From Sphingomonas sanxanigenens DSM 19645 = NX02 (GTDB lineage: Bacteria; Pseudomonadota; Alphaproteobacteria; Sphingomonadales; Sphingomonadaceae): a DNA stretch of 64,000 nucleotides. The notes beneath the pieces were generated by a model that was not told where the DNA came from, did no database searches, and was given only the letters and a program-made list of their open reading frames with translations. Where the stretch lies: NCBI RefSeq assembly GCF_000512205.2, contig NZ_CP006644.1, positions 4,044,501-4,108,500 on the forward strand. The letters run 5' to 3'. Positions within the stretch are counted from its first letter, which is position 1. Each line of letters starts with the position of its first letter. The position numbers and the translations under genes are program-made. Shown piece by piece: positions 4,197 through 22,204 of this stretch.

Positions 4197-5333
4197 TCAA
4201 TAACCCGAGAGCCGGGCGAGACGATCGGCGTGGAAGTCGGCATCGCCGAACAGTTCGGCAAGCACGCGCTGCCGCTTCATGAAGAAGCCGATATCATATT
4301 CGTCGGTCATGCCGATGCCGCCATGCATCTGCACGCCTTCCTGCACCGCGAGCAGGCTGGCGAGGCCCGCCATGCCCTTCGCCACCGAGACCGCGCGATC
4401 GGCGCCCTCGCTCCCCTCGTCGAGCAGTTGCTGCGCCTTGAGCACCGCGGCGCGCGCGACTTCAAGCTCGGCATAGAGATGCGCGGCGCGGTGCTGCAGC
4501 GCCTGGAAGCTGCCGATCGCGACGCCGAACTGCTTGCGCTCGCGCAGATAATCGACCGTCATGTCCATCGCGCCGCCGCCGACACCGAGCATCTCGGCCG
4601 CGGCACCGGCACGCACCGCGCCGAGCACGCGGTTCAGCGTTTCCCTGCCCTCGCCCACGGCGCCGATCACCGCGTCGCCATCCACCTCGACGCCGTCGAA
4701 GGCGAGCCGCGCCGCCATGCTGGCATCCGCAAGGCGGTCGGCGCCGATTGAGAGCCCCGCGACATCCTTTTCCACCGCGAACAATGTCACACCGCCCGCG
4801 TCGGCATCGCCGCCCGCGGTGCGCGCGGCGACGATCAGCAGGTCGGCGACATGGCCCAGCGGCACGAAGCGCTTGGCCCCGCTCAGCCGGAAGCCATTGC
4901 CCGAAGGCTCGGCGCGCAGCCCGATCGATTGCGGCCGATGCCGCGCGCCCTCGTCGACCGCGAGCGCCGCCACGGTCTCGCCCGCGGCAATGCCGGGCAG
5001 CCAGCGCTCCCGCTGCGCCGCGCTGCCGTCCTTCAGCGCGGTCACCGCGCCGATCGCGGTGCCGAGAAAGGGCGACGGCGTGAGGTTGCGTCCGACCTCC
5101 TCCAGCACGATCCCCGCCTCGACATGGCCGAGCCCGAGCCCGCCGTCCGCCTCGGGAATCAGGATGGCGTTGAACCCCATCTCGCCGAACTGCCGCCACA
5201 GCGCCGGCGAGAAGCCCGCCGCGTCACCGGCATCGCGCAGCGCGCGCATATGGCCGACCGGTGCCGCCCCGGCGACGAAGCCGCGCGCGGTATCGGCGAG
5301 CATCGCCTGCTCATCGTCATGGAACATCGGCAT
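4197..5333 (-). CDS. Acyl-CoA dehydrogenase subunit lacking the usual catalytic Glu
   Basis: This 378-residue protein has acyl-CoA dehydrogenase N-terminal, middle and C-terminal domains, with the flavin-contact region MHGGIGMTDEYDIG near residue 335. The position that holds the catalytic Glu in isovaleryl-CoA-type enzymes reads VLGAVRAG instead of the partner's LLGHERE, and the C-terminal YEGT or GGTSEIQ motif is replaced by LFGDADFH. It follows the next acyl-CoA dehydrogenase gene by only 3 bases. The pattern matches obligate heteromeric (alpha2beta2) FadE pairs of steroid-degrading actinobacteria, in which only one subunit carries the base. The role as a non-catalytic partner is inferred. 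Confidence 0.85.
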   Translation of the reverse strand: MPMFHDDEQAMLADTARGFVAGAAPVGHMRALRDAGDAAGFSPALWRQFGEMGFNAILIPEADGGLGLGHVEAGIVLEEVGRNLTPSPFLGTAIGAVTALKDGSAAQRERWLPGIAAGETVAALAVDEGARHRPQSIGLRAEPSGNGFRLSGAKRFVPLGHVADLLIVAARTAGGDADAGGVTLFAVEKDVAGLSIGADRLADASMAARLAFDGVEVDGDAVIGAVGEGRETLNRVLGAVRAGAAAEMLGVGGGAMDMTVDYLRERKQFGVAIGSFQALQHRAAHLYAELEVARAAVLKAQQLLDEGSEGADRAVSVAKGMAGLASLLAVQEGVQMHGGIGMTDEYDIGFFMKRQRVLAELFGDADFHADRLARLSGY

Positions 5334-5336
5334 GGC

Positions 5337-6533
5337 TCAGGCTCCCGGCAGGCCAAGGATGCGCTTGGCGATGATGTTGAGCTGGATCTCGGACGTGCCG
5401 CCCTCGATCGAATTGGCCTTGGTGCGCAGCCAGCTCCGCGCGGCGGCACCGCCATGCGATCGTTCGCTGTCCCATTCCAGCGCGTCCGATCCGCCGGCCG
5501 CCATCGCCAGTTCGTGGCGCTGCTTGTTCAGCTCGGTGCCGTAATATTTCATCATCGACGGCTGGGCGGGATGCGCCTTGCCCGCCTTCAACTGATCGAT
5601 GAAGCGTTCGGACATCGCCCGGAACGCCTCGGCACGCAGCTCGAACAGGGCGATGCGCGCACGCAGCACGGGATCGTCGAGCCGACCGTCGGGCTCGGCG
5701 CCGAGATGCGCGAGCGCCATTTCCCCCAGCGACGCCTCGCCTGCGCGCAATCCCATGCCCGAGATCATCTCGCGCTCATGGCCGAGCAGATATTTGGCCA
5801 CATCCCAGCCGCGGTTGAGGTCGCCGACCAGATTGTCCTTGGGCACCTTCACATCGTCGAAGAAGGTCTCGCAGAAGGGCGAATAGCCCGAGATCAGCAG
5901 GATCGGCCTGGTCGAGACGCCGGGCGAGGCCATATCGAACAGCACGAACGAGATGCCTCCATGCTTGTTCTCCGGATCGGTGCGGACGAGGCAGAAGATC
6001 CAGTCCGCCTTGTCGGCATAGCTGGTCCACACCTTCTGACCGTTGACGAGGAAATGATCGCCCTTGTCCTCCGCGCGCGTCGCGAGCGAGGCGAGGTCTG
6101 ATCCGGCATTGGGTTCGGAATAGCCCTGGCACCAGCGGATTTCGCCGCGCGCGATCTTCGGGAGATGATCGCGCTTCTGCGCCTCGCTGCCATATTTGAG
6201 CAAGGCCGGCCCGAGCATCGAGATGCCGAACGAGCTCAGCGGGCTGCGGCAGCCGAGCGCGGCCATCTCCTGCTGGAGGATCTTCGCCTCGGCCGGCGCC
6301 AGCCCGCCGCCGCCATAGGCGGCCGGCCAGTCGGGCACCGTCCAGCCGCGCGCGGCCATCACGTCCAGCCATTGCTTCTGCGCCGGGGAGGTGAAGCGCG
6401 CATTGCGTCCGCCCCAGCAGATATCGGCCTCCGAACGCATCGGCGTGCGCATCTCGGGCGGGCAATTCTCGATCAGCCATGCGCGCGTCTCCGCGCGGAA
6501 GGCGTCGAGCCCGGTCTGCACCGCCTCACCCAT
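5337..6533 (-). CDS. Acyl-CoA dehydrogenase (probable catalytic partner subunit)
   Basis: This 398-residue FAD enzyme would oxidise an acyl-CoA to its 2-enoyl-CoA. Visible marks are [16 protein letters not shown] (flavin and substrate region), [13 protein letters not shown], Glu near residue 253 in LLGHERE at the alternative catalytic-base position, and a C-terminal IEGGTSEIQ motif about 20 residues from the end. It overlaps the upstream hydratase/dehydrogenase fusion by 8 bases and is followed at once by a second, partner-like acyl-CoA dehydrogenase. The three genes form one leftward beta-oxidation operon. Chain length or ring specificity cannot be read from the sequence. Confidence 0.9.
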
Positions 6534-8577
6534 TGAAGGTCTCGCCCTTCGCTGCCCTGGCCTTCAGCAGCTCGGAAACGCGCAGTGCCGGCATCCGCGC
6601 GGCATGCTTCTCCAGCCCCGCGACGACGGTATCGAGGCCGATCGTATCCGCCCAGAACATCGGGCCGCCCGTCCAGGCCGGCCAGCCATAGCCGTTGAGC
6701 CAGACGATATCGATGTCCGAGGCACGCTGCGCGATCCCCTCTTCGAGGATCAGCGCGCCTTCATTGACCATCGGGTAGAGCAGCCGCTCCAGGATCTCCT
6801 CGTCGGAAATGCTGCGCTGTTCCGTGCCCGCTTTCGCGGCGAAGTCGGCGATGATCGCCTCAGCCTCGGCCGAGGGGGTGCGGTTGCGGCTGGCGTCATA
6901 ATCGTAGAAGCCGCGGCCGTTCTTCTGCCCGCGCAGGCCCGCTTCACAGAGCCGGTCCCGCAGCGTCTCGCCGTTCGATTTCGCCGGATCCCAGCCGATG
7001 TCGAGCCCGGCGAGATCGGCCATCTGGAACGGCCCCATCGGGAAGCCGAAATCGAGCAGCACGCGATCGACATCGACCGGCCGCGCGCCTTCCATCAGCA
7101 GCGCATTGGCCTCGCGCTGGCGCGGCGACAGCATGCGGTTGCCGATGAAGCCGTGGCAGACGCCCGAGACGACCGCGATCTTCCCGATCCTGCGTGCCAG
7201 CCCCATGCAGGTCGCCAGCACCGCCGGCGCGGTCTTCGCCCCGCGCACGATCTCGAGCAGCTTCATGACGTTGGCGGGGGAGAAGAAATGTAGGCCGATC
7301 ACCGCTTCCGGCCGGCTGGTTGCCGCGGCGATCTCGTCGACGTCGAGATAGCTCGTATTGGTCGCGAGGATCGCGCCCTGCTTGACGATGGCGTCGAGGC
7401 GGCCGAACACCTCCTTCTTGATCTCCATCAGCTCGAACACCGCCTCGATCACGAGGTCGCAATCGGCGAGGTCGGCATAATCGAGCGAACCGGCGAGGTT
7501 GCCCATCGCCTTTTCCACCGCCTCGGCGGTCATCCGCCCCTTGGCCGCGCTCGCCTCGTAATTCTTGCGGATGATGGCGATGCCGCGATCGAGCGCGGCC
7601 TGCTCGCGCTCGATGATCGTCACGGGGATACCCGCGGTCAGGAAGTTCATCGCGATGCCGCCGCCCATCGTGCCGGCACCGAGGATGCCCACCTTCGCGA
7701 TCGGCAGCGTCTGCGTGTCGGCGGGCAGCCCGTCGATCTTGGCCGCCGCGCGCTCGGCGAAGAACAGGTGGCGCAATGCCCTGGACTGGGTACCGTTCAT
7801 CAGCTTGAGGAACAGCGCACGCTCCTTCGCCACGCCCTCGGCATAGGGCAGCGCCACCGCCGCCTCGACCGCCTGGATGCAGGCTTCCGGCGCCTCGAAG
7901 CCCTTCAGCCGCCGCGCGTTGGCCTTGCGGAACGCGGCGAAGGTGGCGGCATCCGCGCCGGCGATGCGATCGGCGCGCGTGCTCGCGACCGGATGCGCGT
8001 CCTTGTCGGCGACGGCGCGCGCAAAGGCGATCGCCTCGGCGAGCAGCAGATCGTCCGCGACCAGCGCGTCGACCAGCCCGATCGCCGCAGCCTTCTTCGC
8101 CGGGATCGGATCGCCCGTCACGATCATCGCCAGCGCCGGTTCGACGCCGACCACGCGCGGCAGCCGCTGCGTGCCGCCGGCGCCAGGCAGCAGCCCCAGC
8201 TTGACCTCGGGCAGGCCGAGCTTCGCCGATGCGGCAGCGATGCGATAATGGCAGCCCAGGGCGACCTCCAGCCCCCCGCCGAGCGCGGTGCCATGGATTG
8301 CGGCGACCACCGGCTTGCCGCTCGCCTCGATCGCGTCGATCACCGCAGGCAGGCCGGGTTCGCGCGGCGGCTTGCCGAATTCGGTGATGTCGGCACCGGC
8401 GAAGAAGGTGCGGCCGGCCGCGGCGATCACCACCGCCTTCACCTGCGGGTCGCCTTCCGCTTCGGCAATCGCCGCGGCCAGCCCCTGCCGGACATCCGCG
8501 GAGAGCGCGTTCACCGGCGGATTGTCCGAGGTGACGATCAGGACGTCGCCGTCGCGGCGCGTGGTTATCGCAGGCAT
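6526..8577 (-). CDS. Bifunctional enoyl-CoA hydratase / 3-hydroxyacyl-CoA dehydrogenase (FadB/FadJ-like)
   Basis: This 683-residue fusion would carry out two successive beta-oxidation steps: hydration of 2-enoyl-CoA and NAD-dependent oxidation of 3-hydroxyacyl-CoA. The N-terminal crotonase domain has both catalytic acids, Glu104 (GGGLEVALG) and Glu124 ([15 protein letters not shown]), and the oxyanion loop. The dehydrogenase domain begins near residue 295 with the Rossmann motif [10 protein letters not shown] and has the catalytic His near residue 429 in [13 protein letters not shown]. The ATG at 8577 follows AAGGAGAAGAC, an excellent ribosome site. It is first in the operon with the two acyl-CoA dehydrogenases and diverges from the acyl-CoA synthetase. 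Confidence 0.93.
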
Positions 8578-8798
8578 GTCTTCTCCTTGGGCGGTCGTTC
8601 GGCGAGGGCCGACCCGGCGAGGATGCAACGCCGCGCGACGATCCGCCACGCTGCCGCCGAAGCCCCTCTCCGAAACATACCCTCTTTCTTAATTTCTCGA
8701 CTCATCGTCGTGATGAAGCTAGGGATAATCACTGTGATGCGGAAGAATCAAGGATAAGCCGCACATACCGACATTTGAGATTGTAGGGAGAGGTGCCG

Positions 8799-10568
8799 AT
8801 GCCCACCGAGGATATGGCGGCCGTCGCCGTCCGTGAGGGCGCCGCCATGTGGCCCGCCATGTCGATCGAGGAGGCCACCCGCCGGCTCTGCGCCCCGGGC
8901 GCGCTGTTCGAAATGGAGACGGTCTCCATCGCCGGCGTGCCGACGCGGACCTGGAAGAACCAGCCACCCACCTTGGCCGCGCTCGCGAAGGCGGTGCATG
9001 CCGGCTATGCCGACCGTGAATTGATGGTGCTGGAGGGTGATCGCGTCACCTATGATGGCTGGTTTCGCGCCGTGGCCGCCCTGGCCGCAAAGCTGGCGGA
9101 AGCGGGCATCGGCAAGGGCGACCGGGTGGCGATGGCGATGCGCAACCTGCCCGAATGGCCGGTCGCCTTCTTCGCGATCGCCAGCCTGGGCGCGATCGCG
9201 GTGCCGCTCAACGCATGGTGGACCGGCGCCGAGCTTGCCTATGGCCTCACCGATTCGGGCGCCCGCCTGCTGATCTGCGACGGCGAGCGCTGGCAGCGCA
9301 TCGCGCCGCTCGCGGAAGGAATCCCCACGCTGCAGGCTGCCTGGGTCGCCCGCGTCGGCGCGACCGAACTGGCCGGGATCGCCCGCGCGTTCGAGGACGC
9401 GGTCGGCCCCGTCGCCGGCTATGGCGACCTGCCGCCGGGCGAATTGCCGGCGGTGGACATCGCGCCGGACGACGATGCGACGATCTTCTACACCAGCGGC
9501 ACCACCGGCGCGCCCAAGGGCGCGCTGGGCACGCATCGCAACATATTGACCTGCAGCCTGGCCAACGCCTTCTCGATCCACCGCTCGCACCTGCGCCGCG
9601 GCGAGACCCCGCCCCAGACCACGCCGCGGGTGACGCTGCTCGTCATCCCGCTGTTCCATGTCACCGCCTGCAACGCCGTGCTGATGGGCACGCTGGCGAC
9701 GGGCAGCAAGCTGGTGCTGATGCGCAAATGGGATCCGCTGGTGGCGCTCGGCCTGATCGAGCGCGAGCGGATCAACAATGCCGGCGGCGTTCCCACCATC
9801 GCCTGGCAGATCCTCGAACATCCCGAGCGTGCACGCTTCGACCTCTCCTCGCTGGAGACGATTGCCTATGGCGGCGCGCCCTCCGCGCCAGAGCTGGTGC
9901 GCCGCGTCCATGGCGATCTCAACGCGGCGCCCAACAATGGCTGGGGCATGACCGAAACCTCCGCGACCGTGACGCATCATGGCGCCGAGGATTATCTTCA
10001 CCGGCCCGACAGCTGCGGCCCGCCCCTCCCCGTCTCCGACCTGCGCATCATGGCGCCCGACGGCCGCACCGAATTGCCGGTGGGCCAGGTCGGCGAACTG
10101 TGGGTGTCGGGGCCGCAGGTGGTGAAGGGCTATTGGCGCAACCCGGAGGCGACGGCAGCCACATTCGTCGATGGCTGGGTGCGCACCGGCGACCTCGCCC
10201 GCCTCGACGACGAAGGCTTCTGCACGATCGTCGACCGCGCCAAGGATATCGTCATTCGCGGCGGCGAGAATATCTATTCGACCGAGGTCGAGAACGTCCT
10301 CTACGCACATCCTGCGGTGACCGACGCGGCGCTGATCGGCCTGCCCCATCGCACATTGGGCGAGGAACCGGGCGCCGTCGTCCATCTCGCGCCGGGCGAA
10401 CAGGCGACCGAGGCCGAACTGCAGGACTGGGTGCGGGAGCGGCTGGCGCCGTTCAAGGTGCCGGTGCGGATCGTGTTCGCGCACGATACCTTGCCGCGCA
10501 ACGCCAATGGCAAGATCCTGAAGACCGAACTCCGCCCATTCTTCGAGCCGTTCCGCTCCGGCGTCTAG
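8799..10568 (+). CDS. AMP-dependent acyl-CoA synthetase
   Basis: This 589-residue ligase would activate a carboxylic acid to its CoA thioester through an acyl-adenylate. Family motifs are present in order: the P-loop YTSGTTGAPKG (about residues 231-241), GWGMTETSATV, RTGDLARLDDEGF, and the C-terminal catalytic Lys in NANGKILKTEL. I chose the ATG at 8799 because GGGAG lies 8 bases upstream, whereas the GTG at 8793 sits too close to it. It diverges from the beta-oxidation operon across a ~220-base region that probably holds both promoters, so it likely provides that operon's substrate. The acid itself is unknown. Confidence 0.92.
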   Translation: MPTEDMAAVAVREGAAMWPAMSIEEATRRLCAPGALFEMETVSIAGVPTRTWKNQPPTLAALAKAVHAGYADRELMVLEGDRVTYDGWFRAVAALAAKLAEAGIGKGDRVAMAMRNLPEWPVAFFAIASLGAIAVPLNAWWTGAELAYGLTDSGARLLICDGERWQRIAPLAEGIPTLQAAWVARVGATELAGIARAFEDAVGPVAGYGDLPPGELPAVDIAPDDDATIFYTSGTTGAPKGALGTHRNILTCSLANAFSIHRSHLRRGETPPQTTPRVTLLVIPLFHVTACNAVLMGTLATGSKLVLMRKWDPLVALGLIERERINNAGGVPTIAWQILEHPERARFDLSSLETIAYGGAPSAPELVRRVHGDLNAAPNNGWGMTETSATVTHHGAEDYLHRPDSCGPPLPVSDLRIMAPDGRTELPVGQVGELWVSGPQVVKGYWRNPEATAATFVDGWVRTGDLARLDDEGFCTIVDRAKDIVIRGGENIYSTEVENVLYAHPAVTDAALIGLPHRTLGEEPGAVVHLAPGEQATEAELQDWVRERLAPFKVPVRIVFAHDTLPRNANGKILKTELRPFFEPFRSGV

Positions 10569-10577
10569 GGGCCGCAG

Positions 10578-10592
10578 CGGAACGACGTTCCG
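10578..10592. terminator. Short hairpin between convergent genes
   Basis: CGGAAC and GTTCCG pair perfectly across a GAC loop between the end of the acyl-CoA synthetase gene and the convergent quinone oxidoreductase gene. The stem has only 6 bases and no T-run, so this is a weak terminator candidate. Confidence 0.3.
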
Positions 10593-10641
10593 GAGATGAA
10601 CGGCTGGACAAGCATCCCTGCCGACCGACAGGCGATCGGTG

Positions 10642-11640
10642 CTACGCCACCGTCACCACCACCTTGCCCACCGCCCGGCGGTCGGCGAGCCACCGGATCG
10701 CATCGCCGCCTTCCGCGAGCGGCCACGACCGGTCGATGCGCGGGCTGATCTGGCCCTTTTCCCACCAGTCGAACAGTTGCGCGACGTTGGCGCGGTTGCG
10801 CTCCGGCTCGCGGCGGGCGAACGCGCCCCAGAACACGCCGCGGACATCGCAGCTCTTGAGCAGGGTGAGGTTGAGCGGCAGCTTCGGAATGCCGGCGGGA
10901 AAACCGACGACGAGATAGCGCCCTTCCCATGCGATCGATCGCAACGCAGGCTCGCAATAATCGCCGCCGACGGGATCGTAGATCACATCGGCGCCGCTCT
11001 CGCCCACCGCCTCCTTGAACGCCTGCGCCAGCGCCTTGGACTGTTCCGGCGTGAAGGGCGCGCGGCCATAGAGCAACGTCGCATCGGCACCGGCCTCGCG
11101 CGCGGCGGCCGCCTTCTCCTCGCTGGAGACCGCCGCGACGACGCGCGCGCCCAGCGCCTTGCCGATCTCGATCGCCGCCAGCCCGACGCCGCCCGCGGCG
11201 CCCAGCACGAGCAAGGTCTCGCCGGGGCGCAGCGTGCCGCGATCCACCAGCGCATGGATGGTGGTGGCATAGGTCATCAGCAGCGCCGCCCCTTCTGCCG
11301 GATCGCGTCCGTCGGGGAGCTTGAAGGCGCGCCCGGCCTCCAGCACCATCTGTTCGGCGAGGCCGCCATGGCCGGTGACCGCAATCAGCCGGTCGCCGAT
11401 CGCCCAGCCCTGCACATCGGCGCCCACCGCTTCGACGACGCCGCTGATCTCGCTGCCCGGCGCGAAGGGACGCTGCGGCTTGAACTGATATTTATCCTCG
11501 ATGATCAGCACGTCGGGATAGTTGATGCCGCAGACAAGCACACGCACGCCCAGTTCGCCCGCCCCCGGCACGGGTACCGGCAGATCGAGCAGGGACAGGG
11601 TTTCGGGGCCGCCAACCGCGGTGGAGACAAGCGCTTTCAT
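10642..11640 (-). CDS. NADPH:quinone oxidoreductase-type zinc-independent dehydrogenase (MDR family)
   Basis: This 332-residue medium-chain dehydrogenase begins MKALVSTAVGGPETL and carries the NADP-binding motif GAAGGVGLAAIEIGKALGA, the signature of the zeta-crystallin/quinone oxidoreductase branch; the structural zinc ligands of alcohol dehydrogenases are absent. It probably reduces a quinone or an enoyl-type alkene. The ATG at 11640 follows AGAGAGGAAACCGG. It is the last gene of a leftward operon (MaoC hydratase, phosphatase-like protein, this gene) with gaps of 16-17 bases, which suggests a role in the same acyl-CoA pathway, for example as an enoyl-CoA reductase. Confidence 0.88.
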   Translation of the reverse strand: MKALVSTAVGGPETLSLLDLPVPVPGAGELGVRVLVCGINYPDVLIIEDKYQFKPQRPFAPGSEISGVVEAVGADVQGWAIGDRLIAVTGHGGLAEQMVLEAGRAFKLPDGRDPAEGAALLMTYATTIHALVDRGTLRPGETLLVLGAAGGVGLAAIEIGKALGARVVAAVSSEEKAAAAREAGADATLLYGRAPFTPEQSKALAQAFKEAVGESGADVIYDPVGGDYCEPALRSIAWEGRYLVVGFPAGIPKLPLNLTLLKSCDVRGVFWGAFARREPERNRANVAQLFDWWEKGQISPRIDRSWPLAEGGDAIRWLADRRAVGKVVVTVA

Positions 11641-11656
11641 CCGGTTTCCTCTCTTC

Positions 11657-12460
11657 TCAATCCTGCTCGACGAGCCGCGCGCGCAGGCGCGCCACGACCT
11701 CGTCGTCCACGCCGATCGACGCAAGATAGGCGGAGATCGTTCCGTGCCCCCGCGCGACCGCGTCGAACGCGGCGGCGATATAGCCGGGATCCGCCGCCAT
11801 CATCGCCGCGATCGCCTCGGGCGGATAGCGCCGTCGAAATTCCTCATCGCCGCCGGTGCGGACAACGGCGCGCGCCATGTCCCCCGCCTGCCGGCCCGGA
11901 ATGGCGCTCGTGAACGCATAGTCCACGGCGATTTCCGCGCGGTCGACGCCCAGCGCCGCGAGCAGCAGCGCAACCGCAACGCCGGTACGGTCCTTGCCCG
12001 CCGAACAGTGGATCACGCAGGGCGCGGCGCCGTCCGCGACATGACGGATGATCGCGCCGAACGTCTCGCCCATCGCGGTCGGCATCTCCGCGTAGAAATC
12101 ATGCATCAGCGCCTGCGCGCCCGCCGCTGTCGGCGGATAGTCCAGCGCCATGTCGACCAGGCGGCGCTTGTGGCCGGGGCGAAAGACGTGGGTGATCGAC
12201 GCGGGGTCGGTCCAGACGGTGGGATCGGCTTCCCGCTCGCGCCGCGCGCGCAGGTCGAAGATGGTGGTGACGTCCAGCGTGGCGAGGCGATCGAGATCCG
12301 CTGCGGTCAGCTTCGACAATCGGTTCGAGCGATAGAGCCGCCCGCGCCGGATCCGGCCGCCTCCGCTGACGGCATAACCGCCGAAATCACGAAAGTTGCG
12401 CGCCCCCTCCAGCCCGATCAGCCGCCCGGCCAGACCTTCGGGGAGCGCGATGCCGTGCAT
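11657..12460 (-). CDS. Tyrosine-protein phosphatase-like protein
   Basis: This 267-residue cytoplasmic protein has the Cys-X5-Arg phosphatase loop HCSAGKDRTG near residue 150 and an upstream NFRDFGGY segment typical of the bacterial Y_phosphatase3 group, related to MptpB and LipA. Such enzymes hydrolyse phosphotyrosine, phosphoserine or phosphoinositides. It lies between the MaoC hydratase and the quinone oxidoreductase genes with gaps of 17 and 16 bases, so it is part of a catabolic operon; why such an operon needs a phosphatase is unclear. With an APH-like kinase gene nearby, a phosphorylated intermediate is possible but speculative. Confidence 0.85.
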   Translation of the reverse strand: MHGIALPEGLAGRLIGLEGARNFRDFGGYAVSGGGRIRRGRLYRSNRLSKLTAADLDRLATLDVTTIFDLRARREREADPTVWTDPASITHVFRPGHKRRLVDMALDYPPTAAGAQALMHDFYAEMPTAMGETFGAIIRHVADGAAPCVIHCSAGKDRTGVAVALLLAALGVDRAEIAVDYAFTSAIPGRQAGDMARAVVRTGGDEEFRRRYPPEAIAAMMAADPGYIAAAFDAVARGHGTISAYLASIGVDDEVVARLRARLVEQD

Positions 12461-12477
12461 CGGTCAGAGCGCGCGGA

Positions 12478-13241: not shown

Positions 13242-13293
13242 GCAGGGATCAGGGGTTTAGGAATCCCGGTATGCCCACCCTCGAGCCCGCCCT

Positions 13294-14556: not shown

Positions 14557-14692
14557 GGATAAACTCTTATGCCCGATGCCGGCGGATCACAAAGCCGTAT
14601 CGATGGTATGGCGCTCAGCACTTGCAAAACAGAACAATTTGAACATAGGGTATCACCAATTACGACAATGATAGCGATCTGCGAGGATGACG

Positions 14693-15748
14693 ATGGGAGG
14701 CCAGGACGGCGGTGGCGCGCGCGTGCCCGCGGCGGACTTCGACGCGACGGCGCTGGGCGCATGGTTGTCGGCGCATGTCGGCGGATTCGGCGCCGTCACC
14801 CGCATCGCCAAATTTCCGGGCGGCCAGTCCAATCCGACCTATCGGGTTGAGGATGGCGCGCGCGCCTATGTCGTTCGCCGCAAGCCGTTGGGCGCCATCC
14901 TGCCCTCCGCCCATGCGGTGGAGCGCGAATATCGGCTGATCGCGGCCCTCCATCCCACCGGTTTCCCGGTCGCCCGCCCCCATGCGCTGTGCGAGGATCC
15001 GGCGGTGATCGGCGCCCCCTTCTATGTGATGGAGCTGGTCGAGGGCCGCACCTTCTGGGACGGGGCGCTGCCCGAATCGGCTCCCGCCGAGCGCCGCGCG
15101 ATCTACGAACAGATGGTCGACGTGCTCGCCGGTCTCCACATGATCGATCCGGAAGCGGTCGGCCTCGCCGACTATGGCGCGCCGGGCAATTATTTCGACC
15201 GGCAGGTCCGTCGCTGGACCAAGCAGTATCGCGCCTCGCAGACCGACGAGATCGAGGCGGTCGAGCGGCTGATCGCCTGGCTGCCAGCGACGCTGCCGAC
15301 GCAGGCGCGCACCTCGATCATCCATGGTGATTACCGCATCGACAACATGATCTTCGATGCCGCCGCCCCGCGCGTGCTGGCGGTGCTCGACTGGGAACTG
15401 TCGACCCTGGGCGATCCGTTCGCCGACTTCGCCTATTTCGCGATGAACTGGGCCTTGCCCAGCGGCGAGCGGCGCTCGCATCTCGGCGGGCTCGATCTCG
15501 CGGGGCTGGGCATTCCCGATCTCGACGCGATCAGCGAACGCTATTGCGCGCGCACCGGCCTCTCCGGGGTCGGCCAGCTCGACTGGTATTTCGCCTACAA
15601 CCTGTTCCGCCTCGCCGGCATCGTCCAGGGCATCCGCAAGCGCTTTCTCGACGGCAACGCCTCGAGCGCGGAGGCCGAGGAGGCCTCGAAACGCGTCCGG
15701 CCGCTCGCCGAACAGGCGTGGGCGTTCGCGGTTCGCGCCGGCGCCTGA
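14693..15748 (+). CDS. APH-family phosphotransferase, ACAD10/11-like kinase domain
   Basis: The ~351-residue protein has an aminoglycoside phosphotransferase-like kinase fold: FPGGQSNPTYRV (nucleotide region), the catalytic loop IIHGDYRIDNMIFD and the metal site VLDWELSTLGDPFADFAYF. Proteins with this pattern occur in acyl-CoA catabolic clusters and as the N-terminal domain of mammalian ACAD10/11, which phosphorylates 4-hydroxyacyl-CoAs before removal of the phosphate. The ATG at 14693 (spacing 6 from GAGG) was preferred to the one at 14687, which abuts GAGG directly. It is first in an operon with two SDRs and a thioesterase. Phosphorylation of a hydroxyacyl-CoA is a reasonable hypothesis, not a certainty. 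Confidence 0.85.
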   Translation: MGGQDGGGARVPAADFDATALGAWLSAHVGGFGAVTRIAKFPGGQSNPTYRVEDGARAYVVRRKPLGAILPSAHAVEREYRLIAALHPTGFPVARPHALCEDPAVIGAPFYVMELVEGRTFWDGALPESAPAERRAIYEQMVDVLAGLHMIDPEAVGLADYGAPGNYFDRQVRRWTKQYRASQTDEIEAVERLIAWLPATLPTQARTSIIHGDYRIDNMIFDAAAPRVLAVLDWELSTLGDPFADFAYFAMNWALPSGERRSHLGGLDLAGLGIPDLDAISERYCARTGLSGVGQLDWYFAYNLFRLAGIVQGIRKRFLDGNASSAEAEEASKRVRPLAEQAWAFAVRAGA

Positions 15749-15777
15749 GCCGCACGCACCTACCAAGGGAGAGAGTG

Positions 15778-16542
15778 ATGGAATTGTTCGACCTGAAGGG
15801 CAAGGTCGCGGTCGTGACCGGATCGTCGCGCGGCATCGGCCGCGCGATCGCCGAGGAACTGGCGGCGCATGGCGCGAAGGTGGTGATTTCCAGCCGCAAG
15901 CAGGATGCGTGCGAGGCGGTGGCGGCGGAGATCAACGCGAAGCACGGGCCGGGCGCGGCGACGGCGATCGCCGCCAGCATCTCCTCCAAGGAGGCGCTGC
16001 AGGAGATGGTGGCGAGCACGCAGCGCACGCTCGGCCCCATCGACGTGCTCATCTGCAACGCGGCGAGCAATCCCTATTACGGGTCGATGGACGGCATCTC
16101 GGACGAGCAGTTCCGCAAGATCCTCGACAACAACATCCTCTCCAACCACTGGCTGATCCAGCTCGCGCTGCCCGACATGCGCGCGAAGCGCGACGGCGCG
16201 ATCGTGGTGATCTCGTCGATCGGCGGGCTCAGGGGTTCGGACACGATCGGCGGCTACAACGTTTCCAAGGCGGCCGATTTCCAGCTCGTGCGCAACTATG
16301 CGGTCGAGAACGGCCGGCACAATATCCGCATCAACGCGATCGCGCCCGGCGTGGTGAAGACCGATTTCGCGCGCGCGCTGTGGGAGGATCCCGCCACGCA
16401 CGACGCCACCGCCAGCCGCACGCCGATGCGCCGGCTGGGCGACCCGCGCGACATCGCCGGCGCCGCGGTGTTCCTCTCCTCGCAGGCGGCGGCGTGGATG
16501 ACCGGCCAGGCGATCGTGGTCGACGGCGGCGTGACGATATGA
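15778..16542 (+). CDS. Short-chain dehydrogenase/reductase (SDR)
   Basis: This 254-residue classical SDR has the coenzyme motif TGSSRGIG near residue 15, the NAAS structural motif, and the catalytic Ser with Tyr-Lys in the YNVSKAA segment. The C-terminal WMTGQAIVVDGG is typical of the family. It would oxidise or reduce a hydroxy/keto group with NAD(P). ATG at 15778 follows AAGGGAGAGAGTG, a strong ribosome site, 29 bases after the kinase stop. It overlaps the next SDR gene by 4 bases (ATGA), so they are translationally coupled. The substrate is unknown. Confidence 0.9.
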   Translation: MELFDLKGKVAVVTGSSRGIGRAIAEELAAHGAKVVISSRKQDACEAVAAEINAKHGPGAATAIAASISSKEALQEMVASTQRTLGPIDVLICNAASNPYYGSMDGISDEQFRKILDNNILSNHWLIQLALPDMRAKRDGAIVVISSIGGLRGSDTIGGYNVSKAADFQLVRNYAVENGRHNIRINAIAPGVVKTDFARALWEDPATHDATASRTPMRRLGDPRDIAGAAVFLSSQAAAWMTGQAIVVDGGVTI

Positions 16543-17342
16543 GCGGCGTGCTTTCGGGCAAGGTCGCGGTGGTCACCGGCGCCGCGTCCGGCATCGGCCG
16601 CGCAAGCGCGCGCCGCTTCGCCGCGGCGGGGGCGCGGGTGCTCGCCTTCGATCGGGCGGCGGCGGTGGATGAGGTTGCCGCCGGGATCGGCGATGGCGCG
16701 ATCGCGATGGAGGGCGATGCCGGTGCCGAGGCGGATGTGGCGGCCGCGATCGAGCGCGCGGTCGACGCCTTCGGGCGGATCGACATCTTCTATGCCAATG
16801 CCGGCATCGTCGGCCAGGCGTCCGGCGGCATCTTCGACACGACGCCGGAGGTGTGGGCGGAAACCTTGCGGGTCAACCTGATCGGCCCCTTCCTCACGGT
16901 GAAACATGCCGCGCCGCGGATCGCCGGCTTCGGCGGCGGTGCAATATTGTGCACAGCCTCGGTCGCCGGGCTGCGATCGGGCGCCGGGCCTGCGCATTAT
17001 TCTGCATCCAAGGCGGGGGTGATCAACCTCGTGCAGACCGCGGCGCAGCAGCTTGCCGGCACCGGCGTCAGGATCAACGCGATCTGCCCCGGCCTGATCG
17101 AGACCGGCATGACCCGTGCCGCCTATGACCATGCCCGCGCCGCCGGCAAGCTCGACCGGATCGGCCAGCTCAACCCGCTGCTGCGCGGCGGCGAGCCCGA
17201 GGAGATCGCGGAGGTGGCGCTGTTCCTCGTCTCCGACGCGGCGAGCTATGTCCATGGCCAGGCGATCGCAGTGGATGGCGGGCTCTCAACCTCGCACCCC
17301 ACCGTCAAGCGCCCCGGCGACCAGCGCGGTGCGGCATGGTAG
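16539..17342 (+). CDS. Short-chain dehydrogenase/reductase (SDR)
   Basis: This 267-residue classical SDR has TGAASGIG near the N-terminus, NAGIVG, a Ser followed by Tyr-x3-Lys in YSASKAG, and YVHGQAIAVDGG. The C-terminus extends ~20 residues beyond the usual end. It overlaps the preceding SDR by 4 bases and the following thioesterase by 7 bases, so the operon is tightly coupled. Two different SDRs in one operon would suit oxidation of two hydroxyl groups or of two stereoisomers of one intermediate; which applies here is not visible. Confidence 0.9.
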   Translation: MSGVLSGKVAVVTGAASGIGRASARRFAAAGARVLAFDRAAAVDEVAAGIGDGAIAMEGDAGAEADVAAAIERAVDAFGRIDIFYANAGIVGQASGGIFDTTPEVWAETLRVNLIGPFLTVKHAAPRIAGFGGGAILCTASVAGLRSGAGPAHYSASKAGVINLVQTAAQQLAGTGVRINAICPGLIETGMTRAAYDHARAAGKLDRIGQLNPLLRGGEPEEIAEVALFLVSDAASYVHGQAIAVDGGLSTSHPTVKRPGDQRGAAW

Positions 17343-18112
17343 GCATCGCCGCGCTGCTCGACGCCGCCGGTCGCGATCCCGGCCGGCTGGAACTCGACCT
17401 GCCCGAGGGCTGGACGCAGGGCCGAACCGCCTATGGCGGGCTGAGCGCGGCGATCGCCTATCGCGCCGCGCGCTCCGTCCAGCCCGATCTGCCGCCGCTC
17501 CGCGCGGCGCAGATCGCTTTCGTCGGCCCGGTTTCCGGTGCCCTCTTCGCGCAGGCGACCTTGCTCAGGCGCGGCCGGACGAGCGCCTTCGTCCGCGCCG
17601 ACCTGTTCAACGGGGATGCCGTGGCGCTGAGCGCGACCTTCCTGTTCATGGACGAACGCGCATCGGAGGTGCAGTTCGACGCGCCGGCCATGCCCGAAGT
17701 CCCCGCCCCCGAAGACGCGGCGCCGGCGATGCGCGACGGCGCGCCCGCCTTCACCGAGCGGCTGGATTATGGCCATGGCCTGCCGTTCAGCGAACGCGGC
17801 CACCCCGAACTGCTCCGTTGGGTGCGCCTGCGCGACCGCGACGGCCTCGACGCGGCGACCGAGATGCTGCTGGTCGGCGATGCCTTGCCGCCGGGCGCCA
17901 CACCGCTGATGCCCCGCCCTGCCCCGATCAGTTCCGCCAACTGGACGGTGAACCTGCTCACCCCGGCGCCGGCCACGACGGACGGCTGGTGGCTGCTCCA
18001 GTCCCGCGCGGAACATGCCGCCGGCGGGGTCAGCAGCCAGGCGATGCGGGTTTGGAACCGGGCCGGCGCGGGGGTGATGACGGGCAGCCAGACGGTCTCG
18101 ATCTTCGGTTGA
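17336..18112 (+). CDS. Acyl-CoA thioesterase, double hot-dog
   Basis: The 258-residue protein matches TesB-like acyl-CoA thioesterases made of two hot-dog repeats: GWTQGRTAYGGLSAAIAYRAA with AAQIAFVGPVSG in the first, and WTVNLLTPAPATTDGWWLLQSRAEHAAGG with SQAMRVWNRAG in the second. It would release a free acid and CoA from a dead-end or product thioester. ATG at 17336 lies inside the end of the SDR gene. It is the last gene of the kinase-SDR-SDR operon; a ~540-base gap follows. Confidence 0.85.
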   Translation: MVGIAALLDAAGRDPGRLELDLPEGWTQGRTAYGGLSAAIAYRAARSVQPDLPPLRAAQIAFVGPVSGALFAQATLLRRGRTSAFVRADLFNGDAVALSATFLFMDERASEVQFDAPAMPEVPAPEDAAPAMRDGAPAFTERLDYGHGLPFSERGHPELLRWVRLRDRDGLDAATEMLLVGDALPPGATPLMPRPAPISSANWTVNLLTPAPATTDGWWLLQSRAEHAAGGVSSQAMRVWNRAGAGVMTGSQTVSIFG

Positions 18113-18651
18113 CCCGTCGAGGCGGACACGCTGCGCGGATCGCTCGACAGCTTGAACGTCTCCGAGCGGCGAAGGATGATCGAACGCATCGCCGGCGTGC
18201 GCCGCGATCATGCCCGCCAGCGGCCAGGCCGGCGCGAACACGATGCCTGGGGTCGGTGCGGCCATCCATCGTGCCATTCGGCGCAGGTGGACGGGACTGC
18301 CGTCATGCCTGCGTCGAGGTATATAGTCAGGACGAGGACGGCCGCAAAGATACGCAATATGTAAATATATGACCACAAACCCCTTCACATGCGTAACTGG
18401 CGGGGATATCTGAAAGCCGCAATGGCCGATCGGCGCGGCCGATGACAACTACCGGAGAGAAACTTGGCGACTGCTCCCGACAGGATCGCGCTCGCGCATC
18501 CCGACCGGCGATGCGGACTGCCGCCCTATCTCGAATCGAAGACGATCCTGCTGGCGGGCGAACCGGCCAAGCTGGCGCCGTGACCGAGATATCGGCGGCT
18601 CGCCGCCGCGGCCGATCGCTGAGCGGCGGCCCCATGACGGGAGAACGTCAA
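18113..18651. other. Long intergenic region, probable promoter of the amidohydrolase group
   Basis: This 539-base gap holds no well-supported gene. An AT-rich patch near 18355-18372 (around ATATGTAAATATAT) stands out from the GC-rich surroundings and could belong to a promoter. A 39-codon ORF with a plausible ribosome site (18464-18583) is listed separately. No tRNA-like or strong terminator structure was seen. Confidence 0.4.
18464..18583 (+). CDS. Possible small ORF (39 aa), function unknown
   Basis: A TTG start at 18464 with GGAG 6 bases upstream opens a 39-codon frame (starting MATAPDRIALAHP if initiated) that stops at 18583. It has no recognisable domain. It may be a real small protein, a leader peptide of the amidohydrolase gene 68 bases downstream, or chance. 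Weak support. Confidence 0.25.
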   Translation: MATAPDRIALAHPDRRCGLPPYLESKTILLAGEPAKLAP

Positions 18652-20379
18652 ATGGCAGCGTATGACCTCGTGCTGCGTGGTGGCCTGATCGTCGACGGCA
18701 GCGGCGACGAACCCTTCACCGGCGACGTGGCCCTCAGCGGCGGCCGCATCGCCGCCGTCGGCCGCGTGGACGGGCCCGGCTTGCATGAGATCGACGCGAC
18801 CGGGCGGATCGTCACCCCCGGTTTCGTCGACATCCACACCCATTATGACGGACAGGCCGTGTGGTCCGAGAGAATGACGCCATCGTCCGCGCATGGCGTC
18901 ACCACCGTGGTGATCGGCAATTGCGGCGTCGGCTTCGCGCCCTGCCGGGCGGCTGACCATGACTTGCTCATCGAGGTGATGGAAGGCGTGGAGGACATCC
19001 CCGGCGTGGTGATGGCCGAGGGATTGCCGTGGGACTGGGAAACCTTCCCCGAATTTCTCGATACGCTGGCGGCGCGGCCGCGCGATATCGATGTCGCCGC
19101 CTACCTGCCGCACAGCCCGCTGCGGGTCTATGCGATGGGCGCGCGGGGTGCGGCGCGCGAGGCAGCGACCAGCGACGACTTGCGCCGCATGCGCGATCTG
19201 GCACGCGAGGCGGTGGAGGCCGGCGCGCTCGGCTTCGCCACGTCGCGCACGTTCATCCACCGCACCGCTAACGGCACCCCGATCCCCAGCTTCGAGGCAT
19301 CGGGTGAGGAACTCGCCGCGATCGCGATGGGGCTGGCGGACGCGGGCGCCGGCATCGTGCAGGCGGTGATGGACGTGCCGCAGCGCAGCTGGGACGAGGA
19401 ACTCGCGATGCTGCGCGACGTGATCCGCCGTTCGGGGCGCCCCGCCACCTTCACCTTCGGCGCGCCCAACGGCGGCCCGCCGATCTGGCGGCCGGTGCTG
19501 GATGCGCTGGACGAGGCCCAGGCGGCGGGCGAGGTGCTGAGCGCACAGATCTTCCCCCGGCCGATCGGCATGATCGTGGGACTGGAGCTTTCCACCCACC
19601 CGTTCGCGCTCTCGCCGAGCTTCCAGCCGATCGCGCGCCTGCCGCTGGCGGAGAAGGTAGCGGCGCTGCGCGATCCGGCGATGCGCGCGCGGCTGATCGC
19701 GGAGCAGCCGGCGGTGGGGCATCCGCTGGCCGCGATGGGGCGCAGCTGGCCGTTCATGTTCCCGCTCGGCGATCCGCCGGTGTACGAACCCGCCGCCTCG
19801 GAAAGCGTCGCCGCGCGCGCTGTGTGCGCCGGCGTCACCCCGGAGGAGATCGCCTACGACCTGCTGCTGGAGGAGGGCGGCCGCGCGATGCTGTACGTCG
19901 CGCTCGGCAACTTCCACGAGAACCGGCTGGATGCGGTGCGCGAGATCATGGCGCATCCCGCCACCGTGCTGGGATTGGGCGATGGCGGCGCGCATTACGG
20001 ATCGATCTGCGACGCCAGCTACCCCACCTTCATGCTCGCCTACTGGGTGCGTGACCGGGCGAACGGGTTCCCGCTGGCGCAGGCGGTGCGGATGCTGGCG
20101 CGCGATCCGGCGATGGTGGTGGGGCTGGCCGACCGGGGATTGATCGCGCCGGGATACAAGGCCGATCTGAACGTGATCGATCTCGACCGCGTGGCTCTGC
20201 ACAAGCCGATGCTGCGCAGCGACCTGCCCGCCGGTGGACGCCGGCTGGACCAGGGCGCGGACGGTTACGACCTGACCATCGTGGCGGGCGAGATTATCGC
20301 CGAGCGGGGCGCGCCGACCGCCGCCCGCCCGGGCCGGCTGGTGCGGGGTGCGCAGGCGGCGCCCGCGACGGCGGCATGA
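18652..20379 (+). CDS. D-aminoacylase/N-acyl-D-amino-acid deacylase-like amidohydrolase
   Basis: This 575-residue cytoplasmic metal hydrolase has the N-terminal sandwich LVLRGGLIVDGSGDEPFTGDVA, the HxH metal motif in VDIHTHYDGQ near residue 60, the VIGNCGVGFAPCR segment with the bridging Cys of D-aminoacylases, and GLGDGGAHYG with the catalytic Asp region. Such enzymes cleave N-acyl-D-amino acids or related amides. I chose ATG 18652 because GGGAG lies 8 bases before it; the ATG at 18634 has no such site. It overlaps the next small ORF by 4 bases. In this catabolic setting it may cleave an amide-linked substrate rather than D-amino acids. Confidence 0.88.
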   Translation: MAAYDLVLRGGLIVDGSGDEPFTGDVALSGGRIAAVGRVDGPGLHEIDATGRIVTPGFVDIHTHYDGQAVWSERMTPSSAHGVTTVVIGNCGVGFAPCRAADHDLLIEVMEGVEDIPGVVMAEGLPWDWETFPEFLDTLAARPRDIDVAAYLPHSPLRVYAMGARGAAREAATSDDLRRMRDLAREAVEAGALGFATSRTFIHRTANGTPIPSFEASGEELAAIAMGLADAGAGIVQAVMDVPQRSWDEELAMLRDVIRRSGRPATFTFGAPNGGPPIWRPVLDALDEAQAAGEVLSAQIFPRPIGMIVGLELSTHPFALSPSFQPIARLPLAEKVAALRDPAMRARLIAEQPAVGHPLAAMGRSWPFMFPLGDPPVYEPAASESVAARAVCAGVTPEEIAYDLLLEEGGRAMLYVALGNFHENRLDAVREIMAHPATVLGLGDGGAHYGSICDASYPTFMLAYWVRDRANGFPLAQAVRMLARDPAMVVGLADRGLIAPGYKADLNVIDLDRVALHKPMLRSDLPAGGRRLDQGADGYDLTIVAGEIIAERGAPTAARPGRLVRGAQAAPATAA

Positions 20380-20555
20380 ACGGCGCGGCCTTTACTCGAG
20401 GCCTCCTGCAGCACCCCGGCGATTCCGGCAGCTGTTACGAACCGATCGAGGAGACCGGCATGCACGCAACGATCGACGAAGGACTCGCGGAGGCGGCCAG
20501 GTGGGACGGCCGCGATCCGATCCACGACATCGACATGCGCGGTGACGCGGCATGA
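20376..20555 (+). CDS. Small coupled ORF (59 aa), unknown function
   Basis: The frame starts with an ATG overlapping the amidohydrolase stop by 4 bases and ends by overlapping the GMC oxidoreductase start by 4 bases, so it is coupled on both sides and is probably translated. The 59-residue product is acidic, with a Cys in DSGSCYEPIEETG and no membrane segment or signal. I do not recognise the family. It could be the relic of a larger gene kept as a translational bridge, or a small partner protein of a neighbour. Confidence 0.6.
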   Translation: MNGAAFTRGLLQHPGDSGSCYEPIEETGMHATIDEGLAEAARWDGRDPIHDIDMRGDAA

Positions 20556-22165
20556 GCGCGCTGCCGGATACCGCCGACTATGTCGTGATTGGCGCAGGCT
20601 CCGCCGGCTGTGTCGTCGCCAACCGGCTGAGCGCCGATCCGGGCACCCGCGTGGTGGTGTTGGAGGCGGGGGGCCGCAATGCCGGGCTGCTCGCCACGAT
20701 GCCCGCCGGCATGGCGACACTGATGCGGGCCGCGAACGCCAGCAACTGGGCGTTCGAGAGCGAGCCGGTTGCGGCGTTGGGCGGGCGGCGGATGTTCGTG
20801 CCCCGCGGCAAGGGGTGGGGCGGTTCCTCCTCGATCAACGGCATGCTCTACGTTCGCGGCAACCGCGCGGATTACGATCAATGGCGGCAGATGGGACTGG
20901 CCGGCTGGAGTTACGACGATGTGCTCCCGCTGTTCCGCCGCATGGAGGACTTTTGCGGCGAGGCGGACACGTGGCATGGCAAGGGCGGTGAGTTGCCGGT
21001 GCGCTACGGCACCTCGCACGATCCGATCTATCGCGCCTTCATCGCGGCGGCGCGCGCGGCGGGTCACCCGGAGACGGACGATTTCAACGGCCGCGATCAG
21101 GAGGGCGTCGGCCGTTATCAGGTGAACATCGAGGGCGGCCGCCGTGCGGGCGCCCGGCGCGCCTTTCTGCTGCCGGCACTGAAGCGACCCAACCTGACGG
21201 CGGGGACGGAGCTGCACGTGACGCGGATCGTGGTGGAGGGCGGCCGCGCCGTCGCGGTGGAGTATGTCCGCGGCAAGGATCGCACGCCCGGCCGCATTGC
21301 CGCTGATCGCGAGATCATCCTGTGCGCGGGCACGATGCAGTCGCCGCAACTGCTCGGCCTGTCCGGGATCGGCGATCCGGAGGATCTGCGCGCGCTCGGC
21401 CTGGCTGTCGTTGCGGCGCTGCCGGGGGTGGGGCGCAACCTGCAGGATCATGTCGATATCGCCGTCACGTATCGCTCTCGCCTGCCCTTGTTGTGGAGCC
21501 GAACGAAGGGGTGGCGCGCGGGCCTTGTCGGGCTACGCTATCTGCTGTCACGCAGTGGGCTCGGCGCCAGCAACTCGCTGGAGGCGGGCGGCTTTCTGCG
21601 CACACGCCCCGAACTGGACCGGCCCGACGTGCAGATCCAGTTCATTCCCGGGGCGATGGTGAACCACGGGCAGAAGGGCATGCAGCCGTTCGATGGTTTC
21701 TCGATCGACATGATCGCGCTGCATCCCGAGAGCCGCGGCACCGTGCGGCTGCGTTCGGCCGATCCGTTCGCCCCGCCTGAAATCCACCCGAACCACCTCG
21801 CCACCACCGGCGATGTCGCGACTTTGCGCGCCGCCGTCCGCCTTGCGCGGGCGATCGGCGAGCAGCCTGCGCTGGCGCCGTGGCGGATCGCGGAGGACGA
21901 GCCGGGCGCCGATGCGGTAAGCGATGCCGCGATCGACGCATGGTTGTACGAACGTGCCGCGACGATCTTCCACCCTGTCGGCACCTGCCGGATGGGCGCG
22001 GCGGACGATCCCGGCGCGGTGGTGGACGCGGCACTGCGCGTCCGCGGCGTTGCCGGGCTGCGCATCGCCGATGCCTCGATCATGCCGACCATCGTCACAG
22101 GCAACACCAATGCCGCCTCGATGATGATCGGCGAGAAGGCCGCCGATCTCATACTGGCAGGTTAA
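20552..22165 (+). CDS. GMC-family FAD-dependent oxidoreductase (choline/alcohol dehydrogenase-like)
   Basis: This 537-residue flavoprotein has the N-terminal FAD motif VVIGAGSAGCVVANRL, the GGSSSINGMLYVRGN signature near residue 90, and the C-terminal active-site pair: His in HPVGTCRMG (~residue 474) and Asn in TGNTNAASMMIGEKA. Members oxidise alcohols to aldehydes or ketones in the cytoplasm and pass electrons to the respiratory chain. It is the last gene of the forward group and is coupled to the 59-residue ORF. A primary or secondary alcohol intermediate of the same pathway is the likely substrate; choline itself is not implied. Confidence 0.92.
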   Translation: MSALPDTADYVVIGAGSAGCVVANRLSADPGTRVVVLEAGGRNAGLLATMPAGMATLMRAANASNWAFESEPVAALGGRRMFVPRGKGWGGSSSINGMLYVRGNRADYDQWRQMGLAGWSYDDVLPLFRRMEDFCGEADTWHGKGGELPVRYGTSHDPIYRAFIAAARAAGHPETDDFNGRDQEGVGRYQVNIEGGRRAGARRAFLLPALKRPNLTAGTELHVTRIVVEGGRAVAVEYVRGKDRTPGRIAADREIILCAGTMQSPQLLGLSGIGDPEDLRALGLAVVAALPGVGRNLQDHVDIAVTYRSRLPLLWSRTKGWRAGLVGLRYLLSRSGLGASNSLEAGGFLRTRPELDRPDVQIQFIPGAMVNHGQKGMQPFDGFSIDMIALHPESRGTVRLRSADPFAPPEIHPNHLATTGDVATLRAAVRLARAIGEQPALAPWRIAEDEPGADAVSDAAIDAWLYERAATIFHPVGTCRMGAADDPGAVVDAALRVRGVAGLRIADASIMPTIVTGNTNAASMMIGEKAADLILAG

Positions 22166-22204
22166 ACATTATATGACATGGACCGGGCTGCCGCCGGCTT
22201 GCTG

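Follow-up and report, generated by a model that had tools for sequence, protein, structure and literature searches.

The window analysed here is a 64,000-nucleotide stretch (C1:4044501-4108500) of the 6.58-Mb, two-contig genome of Sphingomonas sanxanigenens NX02. A catabolic gene island at positions 4197-18112 of this window probably forms the larger half of a single beta-oxidation pathway whose substrate would be a bulky carboxylic acid bearing a hydroxyl (or keto) group, with a step resembling that of the bacterial proteins LvaA and LvaC and of mammalian ACAD10 and ACAD11. A smaller half, block B, lies 287 kb away and encodes the acyl-CoA dehydrogenase of ACAD10/11 type. By sequence comparison, the two halves look like a conserved bacterial hydroxy-acid breakdown pathway that is split in this genome and employs a known kind of kinase chemistry.

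The island and its distant counterpart

The genes of the island are as follows (positions in the window, strand, product and basis of assignment):

4197-5333, minus: ACADd, acyl-CoA dehydrogenase of the PimD-like small-subunit class (Pfam; NCBIfam pimD_small, 220.8 bits; found in 78/80 compared loci)
5337-6533, minus: ACADc, acyl-CoA dehydrogenase of the PimC-like large-subunit class (Pfam; nearest Protein Data Bank (PDB) chains 4x28 and 6wy9)
6526-8649, minus: FadJ/FadB-type fusion of enoyl-CoA hydratase and 3-hydroxyacyl-CoA dehydrogenase (Pfam, NCBIfam)
8793-10568, plus: acyl-CoA synthetase (AMP-binding CoA ligase; PF00501, 283 bits; PDB neighbours)
10642-11640, minus: QOR, quinone-type MDR reductase (family match, comparison between loci)
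11657-12460, minus: PF13350 phosphatase, atypical lipid phosphatase or MptpB-like (214 bits; P-loop HCSAGKDRTG)
12478-12948, minus: MaoC-type hydratase (Pfam; start codon picked by comparison)
13294-14556, minus: tandem (double) TetR regulator of 420 aa (two TetR_N stretches; copies of at least 40% identity in 37/80 loci)
14687-15748, plus: APH-like kinase of ACAD10/11 type, LvaA-like (PF01636, 204.7 bits; kinase tree)
15778-16542, plus: SDR oxidoreductase 1, SDR1 (family match)
16539-17342, plus: SDR oxidoreductase 2, SDR2 (family match)
17336-18112, plus: 4HBT_3 acyl-CoA thioesterase (family match)

Every gene named in a preliminary description of this DNA is real, lies where it was placed and has an intact open reading frame; the double TetR regulator (13294-14556) and a LysR gene downstream of the island (22173-23222) had not been named. 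Spacing within each run is tight. ACADd and ACADc are 3 bases apart and ACADc overlaps the FadJ-type gene by 8 bases; gaps of 16 and 17 bases separate QOR from the phosphatase gene and the phosphatase gene from that of MaoC; and the kinase gene is followed after 29 bases by SDR1, which overlaps SDR2 by 4 bases, while SDR2 overlaps the thioesterase gene by 7. Such overlaps (4-8 bases) and gaps (3-29 bases) are consistent with operons. Eleven of the island genes have counterparts, 58-82% identical, that are likewise grouped in a member of a different genus (locus L046 and its continuation L184), and their grouping therefore exceeds chance.

A search of named genomes with ACADc yielded 578 related places, and the best 80 of these (71-83% identical; more exist) were compared over stretches of up to 21 kb, with gene presence scored by fixed identity limits. 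Most belong to Sphingomonas, the remainder to Sphingobium, Croceicoccus, Stakelama, Aurantiacibacter and others. The kinase is present in 47/80 loci, and in every one of these 47 the same stretch holds an ACAD10/11-type dehydrogenase gene, compared with 4/33 of the loci without the kinase. The two genes lie no more than 2.5 kb apart in 41/47 cases and 9.7-12.5 kb apart in the other six, which belong to the type-P clusters described below. Across the 80 loci, ACADd was recovered in 78, the FadJ-type fusion in 69, the ligase in 58, the ACAD10/11-type dehydrogenase in 51, SDR2 in 48, SDR1 in 38, the double TetR regulator (TetR2) in 37 and the phosphatase in 5. A second sample, overlapping the first, was centred on the kinase and comprised 20 loci (ranks 2-19 and two lower) from 226 matching genomes among 396. 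The ACAD10/11-type gene falls within the stretch in 13/20 of these; in the other seven it lies up to 2 kb beyond the stretch (four loci), 36 kb away, more than 1 Mb away, or on another contig (one locus each).

Two layouts recur. Type S, found mainly in Sphingomonas and with an incomplete gene set in some loci, has the order ligase, beta-lactamase-family hydrolase, FadJ, amidase, ACADc, ACADd and thioesterase, followed by a run SDR2-SDR1-kinase-zinc reductase-ACAD10/11-type gene that is divergent from TetR2. Type P carries QOR-phosphatase-(MaoC)-(TetR2) beside kinase-SDR1-SDR2-(thioesterase)-FadJ-ACADc-ACADd, with block B adjoining. In this type, block B comprises a second dehydrogenase pair, a thiolase gene and the ACAD10/11-type gene, and is divergent from another reductase gene. 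Besides the window, 11 distinct type-P clusters were found, including those of a Croceicoccus marinus megaplasmid and of Sphingobium naphthae, whose phosphatase gene lies 70 bases beyond the stretch first compared.

Block B adjoins the island in all 11 of these other clusters. In S. sanxanigenens it is found at C1:3755944-3762033, and its products share 80% (ACAD10/11-type dehydrogenase), 77% (thiolase), 83% (Bc), 67% (Bd) and 73% (reductase) identity with their type-P counterparts. Its dehydrogenase (C1:3759511-3760851) aligns to 8v3u (E 9.7e-129) and keeps all of Arg626, Arg631, His634, Arg637 and Asp753. Because the ortholog and its operon are present 287 kb from the island, the pathway is split in this genome; a loss of the ACAD10/11-type dehydrogenase, considered as an explanation for its absence from the window, was rejected on the same grounds. 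A candidate operator common to both halves, TTGCAAAAnAG, occurs in two promoters of the window's genome and was dropped for lack of conservation: it is present in one of eight regions between TetR2 and the kinase gene and in one of eight between the ACAD10/11-type and reductase genes (one of the latter eight being empty).

The kinase and its proposed phosphate-eliminating partner

Among solved proteins, the kinase matches 3dxp (3e-116) and the kinase domain of ACAD11 (8v3v, 3e-79). In the alignment to 8v3v, the catalytic Asp220 and Asn225 and the CoA-contacting Arg176 of ACAD11 are identical. These residues are named in excerpts of the ACAD11 paper (PMC12440821), whose numbering is followed here; the printed chain is numbered one lower, and Arg86 was not placed and is not claimed. 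By family match, close relation and these residues the kinase is assigned to the ACAD10/11 (LvaA-like) type, as had been proposed for it earlier, and it recurs with dehydrogenases, SDRs, ligase and fusion protein. In a tree built by a quick method with SH-aLRT support only, it forms a 17-row branch (SH-aLRT 99) with all type-P kinases and four others. Loci L073 and L155, on contigs of equal length (812,642 bases), carry identical kinases and were counted once, leaving 16 distinct clusters in this branch. An ortholog of the block B dehydrogenase, at 74-86% identity, is present in 10/10 tested genomes of the branch.

Of ten APH-family matches in the genome, four are strong, and the paralogs of the window kinase fall outside its branch. 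Further kinase/ACAD modules lie at 1.26 Mb, where the ACAD10/11-type protein is 63% identical to the type-P protein, and at 1.24 Mb, where it is more distant (38%). Locus L041 (G000:C1:1255000-1274900), one such module with an ACAD10/11-type gene, also contains genes for a thiolase, a TonB receptor and an MFS transporter, and a stretch of Novosphingobium resinovorum plasmid pSA2 (L202) resembles it in layout by annotation.

The two dehydrogenases of the window are not of the phosphate-eliminating kind. The Arg626/Arg631/His634/Arg637 pattern of ACAD10/11 is found in neither of them, its two matches in the window being other open reading frames, and the type-P ACAD10/11-type protein shares at best 26% identity with them. 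As the phosphate-binding pattern is absent from ACADc and ACADd, both were rejected as phosphate-eliminating enzymes; the enzyme of that kind is not encoded in the window but 287 kb away. By sequence, ACADc and ACADd belong instead to the large and small classes of PimC and PimD, which are likewise encoded adjacently in PimC/PimD pairs, although their NCBIfam scores (290.6 bits for PimC, equivalog cut-off 623.85; 220.8 bits for PimD, cut-off 652.7) are far below those of the equivalogs. They probably form one alpha2beta2 enzyme. The nearest chains of ACADc, 4x28 and 6wy9, are alpha2beta2 enzymes acting on steroid side chains.

Gene content, synteny, orthology, conserved residues and the split are established by the comparisons; the substrate, the position of its hydroxyl, the target of the phosphatase and the order of steps are our inference, for which the following scheme is proposed. 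The ligase would form the CoA thioester of the substrate acid, and the PimC/PimD-like pair, the FadJ-type fusion, MaoC and the block B thiolase would perform the usual beta-oxidation cycles. Such cycles would be obstructed by a hydroxyl on the gamma carbon (C4), and one of the SDRs would set the redox state of this hydroxyl. The kinase would phosphorylate the C4 hydroxyl on the CoA ester, after which the ACAD10/11-type dehydrogenase would expel the phosphate in an FAD-assisted elimination; the resulting 2-enoyl-CoA would go back into beta-oxidation. A phosphorylated hydroxyacyl-CoA step, suggested in the preliminary description, is likely given that all 47 kinase-bearing ACADc loci include the ACAD10/11-type dehydrogenase, and by analogy with LvaA/LvaC and ACAD10/11 the most likely task of the kinase and the block B dehydrogenase is to shift a C4 hydroxyl. 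From the esterase-type, amidase and TonB-receptor genes present in related clusters, the substrate may be larger and contain an ester or amide linkage; it is perhaps a lactone. The nearest solved ligases were uninformative about the substrate, their matches being scattered over ferulate/coumarate, malonate and fatty-acid enzymes.

This step had been thought scarcely described in bacteria. In fact, kinase/elimination chemistry is already known there, from the lva levulinate pathway of Pseudomonas putida, in which LvaA is the kinase and LvaC the dehydrogenase, and which preceded the mammalian work (Rand et al., 2017, as cited in excerpts of PMC11342911, PMC12440821 and PMC6692424). The pathway proposed here resembles lva in combining an LvaA-type kinase, an ACAD10/11-type dehydrogenase, an SDR and a CoA ligase. 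It differs in that a PimC/PimD-like pair, a FadJ fusion, a MaoC hydratase and a thioesterase accompany the kinase, that a PF13350 phosphatase is present, and that the LvaC-like gene, rather than adjoining the kinase gene, lies 287 kb off with a thiolase gene. The 29-base gap between the kinase and SDR1 genes holds no gene, so there is no LvaB at that spot. The kinase and dehydrogenase are also homologous to the two domains of mammalian ACAD10 and ACAD11, but are here separate proteins; and ACAD10 has a phosphatase-fold (HAD) domain, whereas the phosphatase of the island has an unrelated fold, with its active-site motif intact. If the proposed pathway is correct, this kinase/dehydrogenase pair, which moves hydroxyls in mammals and in the levulinate route, would be a regular module of larger sphingomonad pathways.

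Several observations weigh against placing all these genes in one pathway. The elimination enzyme is encoded outside the window, and two further kinases of this genome have their own ACAD partners (L041, L042). The 33 ACADc loci without the kinase comprise 12 short stretches and 21 full-length ones, so that ACADc, ACADd and FadJ often stand without a kinase nearby. Strict pairing is unproven for the three kinase-branch genomes in which the ACAD10/11-type gene is remote (at 36 kb, at more than 1 Mb and on a different contig); no operator shared between the island and block B was found; and the C4 position is borrowed by analogy from LvaA and ACAD10/11. The kinase might instead act on another hydroxyl (e.g. 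C3 or C5) or on a non-CoA alcohol of the substrate, with the distant ACAD10/11-type gene serving other kinases only. The number of strong APH-family kinases in the genome and the separation of kinase from dehydrogenase by the split are compatible with this, as is the presence in two genomes (G159 and G097) of a second kinase beside the best ACAD10/11-type gene. Nevertheless, related kinases share a stretch with the ACAD10/11-type gene throughout the 47 ACADc loci, and the APH-family matches of this genome all lie away from the 3.76-Mb dehydrogenase; this alternative is unlikely.

The PF13350 phosphatase

The P-loop of the phosphatase, HCSAGKDRTG, fits the motif HCXXGKDR[TA]G of the atypical lipid phosphatases, a class with phosphoinositide activity in its tested members according to excerpts of PMC3091653. 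A predicted model (pLDDT, a per-residue confidence score, 83.7; six-sequence alignment) matches the Clostridioides difficile and mycobacterial PtpB structures (8dhj, E 2.7e-14; 1ywf, E 8e-13; the latter fold also represented by 2oz5). On the basis of PF13350, P-loop and predicted fold, the protein is assigned to the atypical lipid phosphatases (MptpB-like). It differs from the MptpB family in its low identity (about 25-29%), its location among catabolic genes and a clade-specific basic patch. This patch, H97-K98-R99-R100 (HKRR), is present in 12/12 type-P phosphatases, and its letters are rare in 31 other PF13350 proteins; it could bind CoA phosphates. The 12 type-P phosphatases form one side of an SH-aLRT 99 branch, against those 31 proteins, and their genes lie directly beside QOR in all 12 distinct clusters.

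The preliminary description had taken the phosphatase, together with the kinase, as a hint of the phosphorylated step. Judging from its distribution, it is an accessory of one branch of clusters, a clade-specific extra missing from sister clusters. No copy occurs in the loci bearing the type-S marker SQOR (0/30 and 0/11), and 4/16 distinct kinase-branch clusters lack it in the stretch read. Three of these four genomes have PF13350 relatives of 32-38% identity elsewhere; the fourth, G091, in which the kinase and the dehydrogenase are both present, gave no match to the phosphatase at E 1e-5. Relatives of the phosphatase occur in 105/199 genomes of the family. Fifteen neighbourhoods were taken from the 105 matching genomes, and 14 of them lack such a kinase; on this evidence, the idea that PF13350 phosphatases generally accompany these kinases was rejected.

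Phosphatases of other folds accompany such kinases elsewhere. In the levulinate cluster of P. citronellolis LA18T, a histidine phosphatase is encoded beside an lvaA homolog, and its authors proposed a role in handling a phospho-intermediate (excerpts of PMC6692424). Excerpts of PMC11342911 describe the HAD domain of ACAD10 as having negligible phosphatase activity and as restraining the kinase. Plasmids were surveyed in 22 stretches: 21 were centred on ACAD10/11-type genes chosen from the 60 listed among 173 records, and the remaining one on a phosphatase gene. Twenty of the 22 are annotated, and 13/20 have a phosphotransferase-family gene. Among these 13, which combine kinase and ACAD10/11-type genes, a phosphatase gene is next to or one gene from the kinase gene in three: two Deinococcus plasmids (L188, 8644-10477; L199, 7238-9026), in which a histidine phosphatase gene directly follows and overlaps the kinase gene, and C. 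marinus, whose PF13350 gene is absent from the plasmid gene table and was detected by tblastn. One Streptomyces plasmid has a HAD hydrolase gene approximately 6 kb from the kinase gene, and the remaining nine show no phosphatase in a gene table that declares itself incomplete. A phosphatase beside such kinases is a pattern deserving a test and not a rule.

Two plasmid stretches are of separate interest. In a Streptomyces sp. NBC_00388 plasmid (L182, 10853-19487), a kinase/ACAD10/11-type pair lies near an AfsA-related gene, with a HAD hydrolase gene nearby, and kinase/dehydrogenase chemistry may touch gamma-butyrolactone signals too. In plasmid pISP1 of Sphingomonas sp. MM-1 (L194), an ACAD10/11-type dehydrogenase gene with no annotated kinase gene in 13 kb adjoins the lindane-breakdown genes linX and linA and is flanked by IS6100 copies.

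Two roles can be set against each other. The phosphatase may be a regulatory or hitch-hiking protein/lipid phosphatase that acts on a target unconnected with the kinase and owes its position to co-inheritance, a reading with close to an even chance of being right. Its relatives are common in the family and mostly found without the kinase, and kinase modules exist without the phosphatase in other lineages; yet the copies within these clusters branch separately from the rest and keep beside QOR across several genera despite changed gene order. More tentatively, it may be a dedicated pathway enzyme that clears phosphate from a stalled or mis-made 4-phosphoacyl-CoA, or from the free phospho-acid that a thioesterase would split off from it, and so returns dead-end or misphosphorylated intermediates to the ligase. 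The constant place beside QOR, the separate branch with its invariant HKRR patch, the reported activity of tested class members on lipid phosphates (excerpts of PMC3091653) and the HAD and histidine phosphatases found with other such kinases all point this way. The absence from type-S loci and from four kinase-branch clusters, the case of G091, the negligible activity of the ACAD10 HAD domain and the small share of plasmid regions with a neighbouring phosphatase (3/13) point the other way. An unrelated role is accordingly somewhat more likely than action on phospho-intermediates, and the narrower proposal, that the phosphatase serves the phospho-acyl-CoA step in repair or overflow and reads CoA through the HKRR patch, is rather doubtful.

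Were that repair role true, the PTP fold would be the third unrelated phosphatase fold beside LvaA/ACAD10-type kinases, after HAD (ACAD10) and histidine phosphatase (Deinococcus, P. citronellolis), and MptpB-like phosphatases would gain a natural substrate class, hydroxyacyl-CoAs or hydroxy acids esterified with phosphate. A phosphatase family known chiefly for its part in virulence would then have a testable link to an ordinary metabolic phosphate ester, and cells with such chemistry may repeatedly need a phosphatase-type partner that restrains the intermediate. Among the papers listed in literature searches, none links a PF13350 phosphatase to an LvaA/ACAD10-type kinase by title or abstract. 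An MptpB-type gene presumably lies beside fadE2 in actinobacteria. Excerpts of PMC6429209 include ptbB (Rv0153c) in a table of cholesterol catabolic genes, and those of PMC12323669 treat PtpB in macrophages.

Regulator region and flanking genes

The double TetR regulator contains two TetR DNA-binding domains in one 420-aa chain. The sequence ATGGTATC is common to 7/8 intergenic regions between its gene and the kinase gene. A long imperfect inverted repeat, CCCGTTCGTCCCGAGCGAAGTCGAGGG ... CCCCTCGACTTCGCTCGGGGCGAACGGGG, occupies window positions 13117-13242, between the MaoC and double TetR genes.

A 329-base gap parts the thioesterase gene from three genes (18442-23222) that lie outside the conserved set:

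18442-20379, plus: amidohydrolase_3 family protein
20552-22165, plus: GMC oxidoreductase of the choline-dehydrogenase subfamily (family match; limit, more than 45% identity)
22173-23222: LysR gene

None of the three has a copy above the identity limits in any compared locus (0/80, 0/20 and 0/15), the sole weaker match to the GMC oxidase being a 41% relative in L056. The amidohydrolase and GMC oxidase, which had been counted as part of the island, were accordingly ruled out as pathway members across these 115 loci, and the plasmid stretches contain no copies of either at E 1e-15. In plasmid pMSHV of Sphingobium herbicidovorans (L204), a kinase/ACAD10/11-type/FadJ module lies near LysR-type and choline-dehydrogenase genes; that LysR does not match the LysR of the window at E 1e-15, and the choline-dehydrogenase gene is almost wholly beyond the stretch.

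Farther along, window positions 34781-64000 contain genes for a Mu-type transposase-like protein (34781-36268) and for a DnaG-like primase (39817-40950), followed by mostly co-directional genes. This region is likely a prophage or other mobile element.

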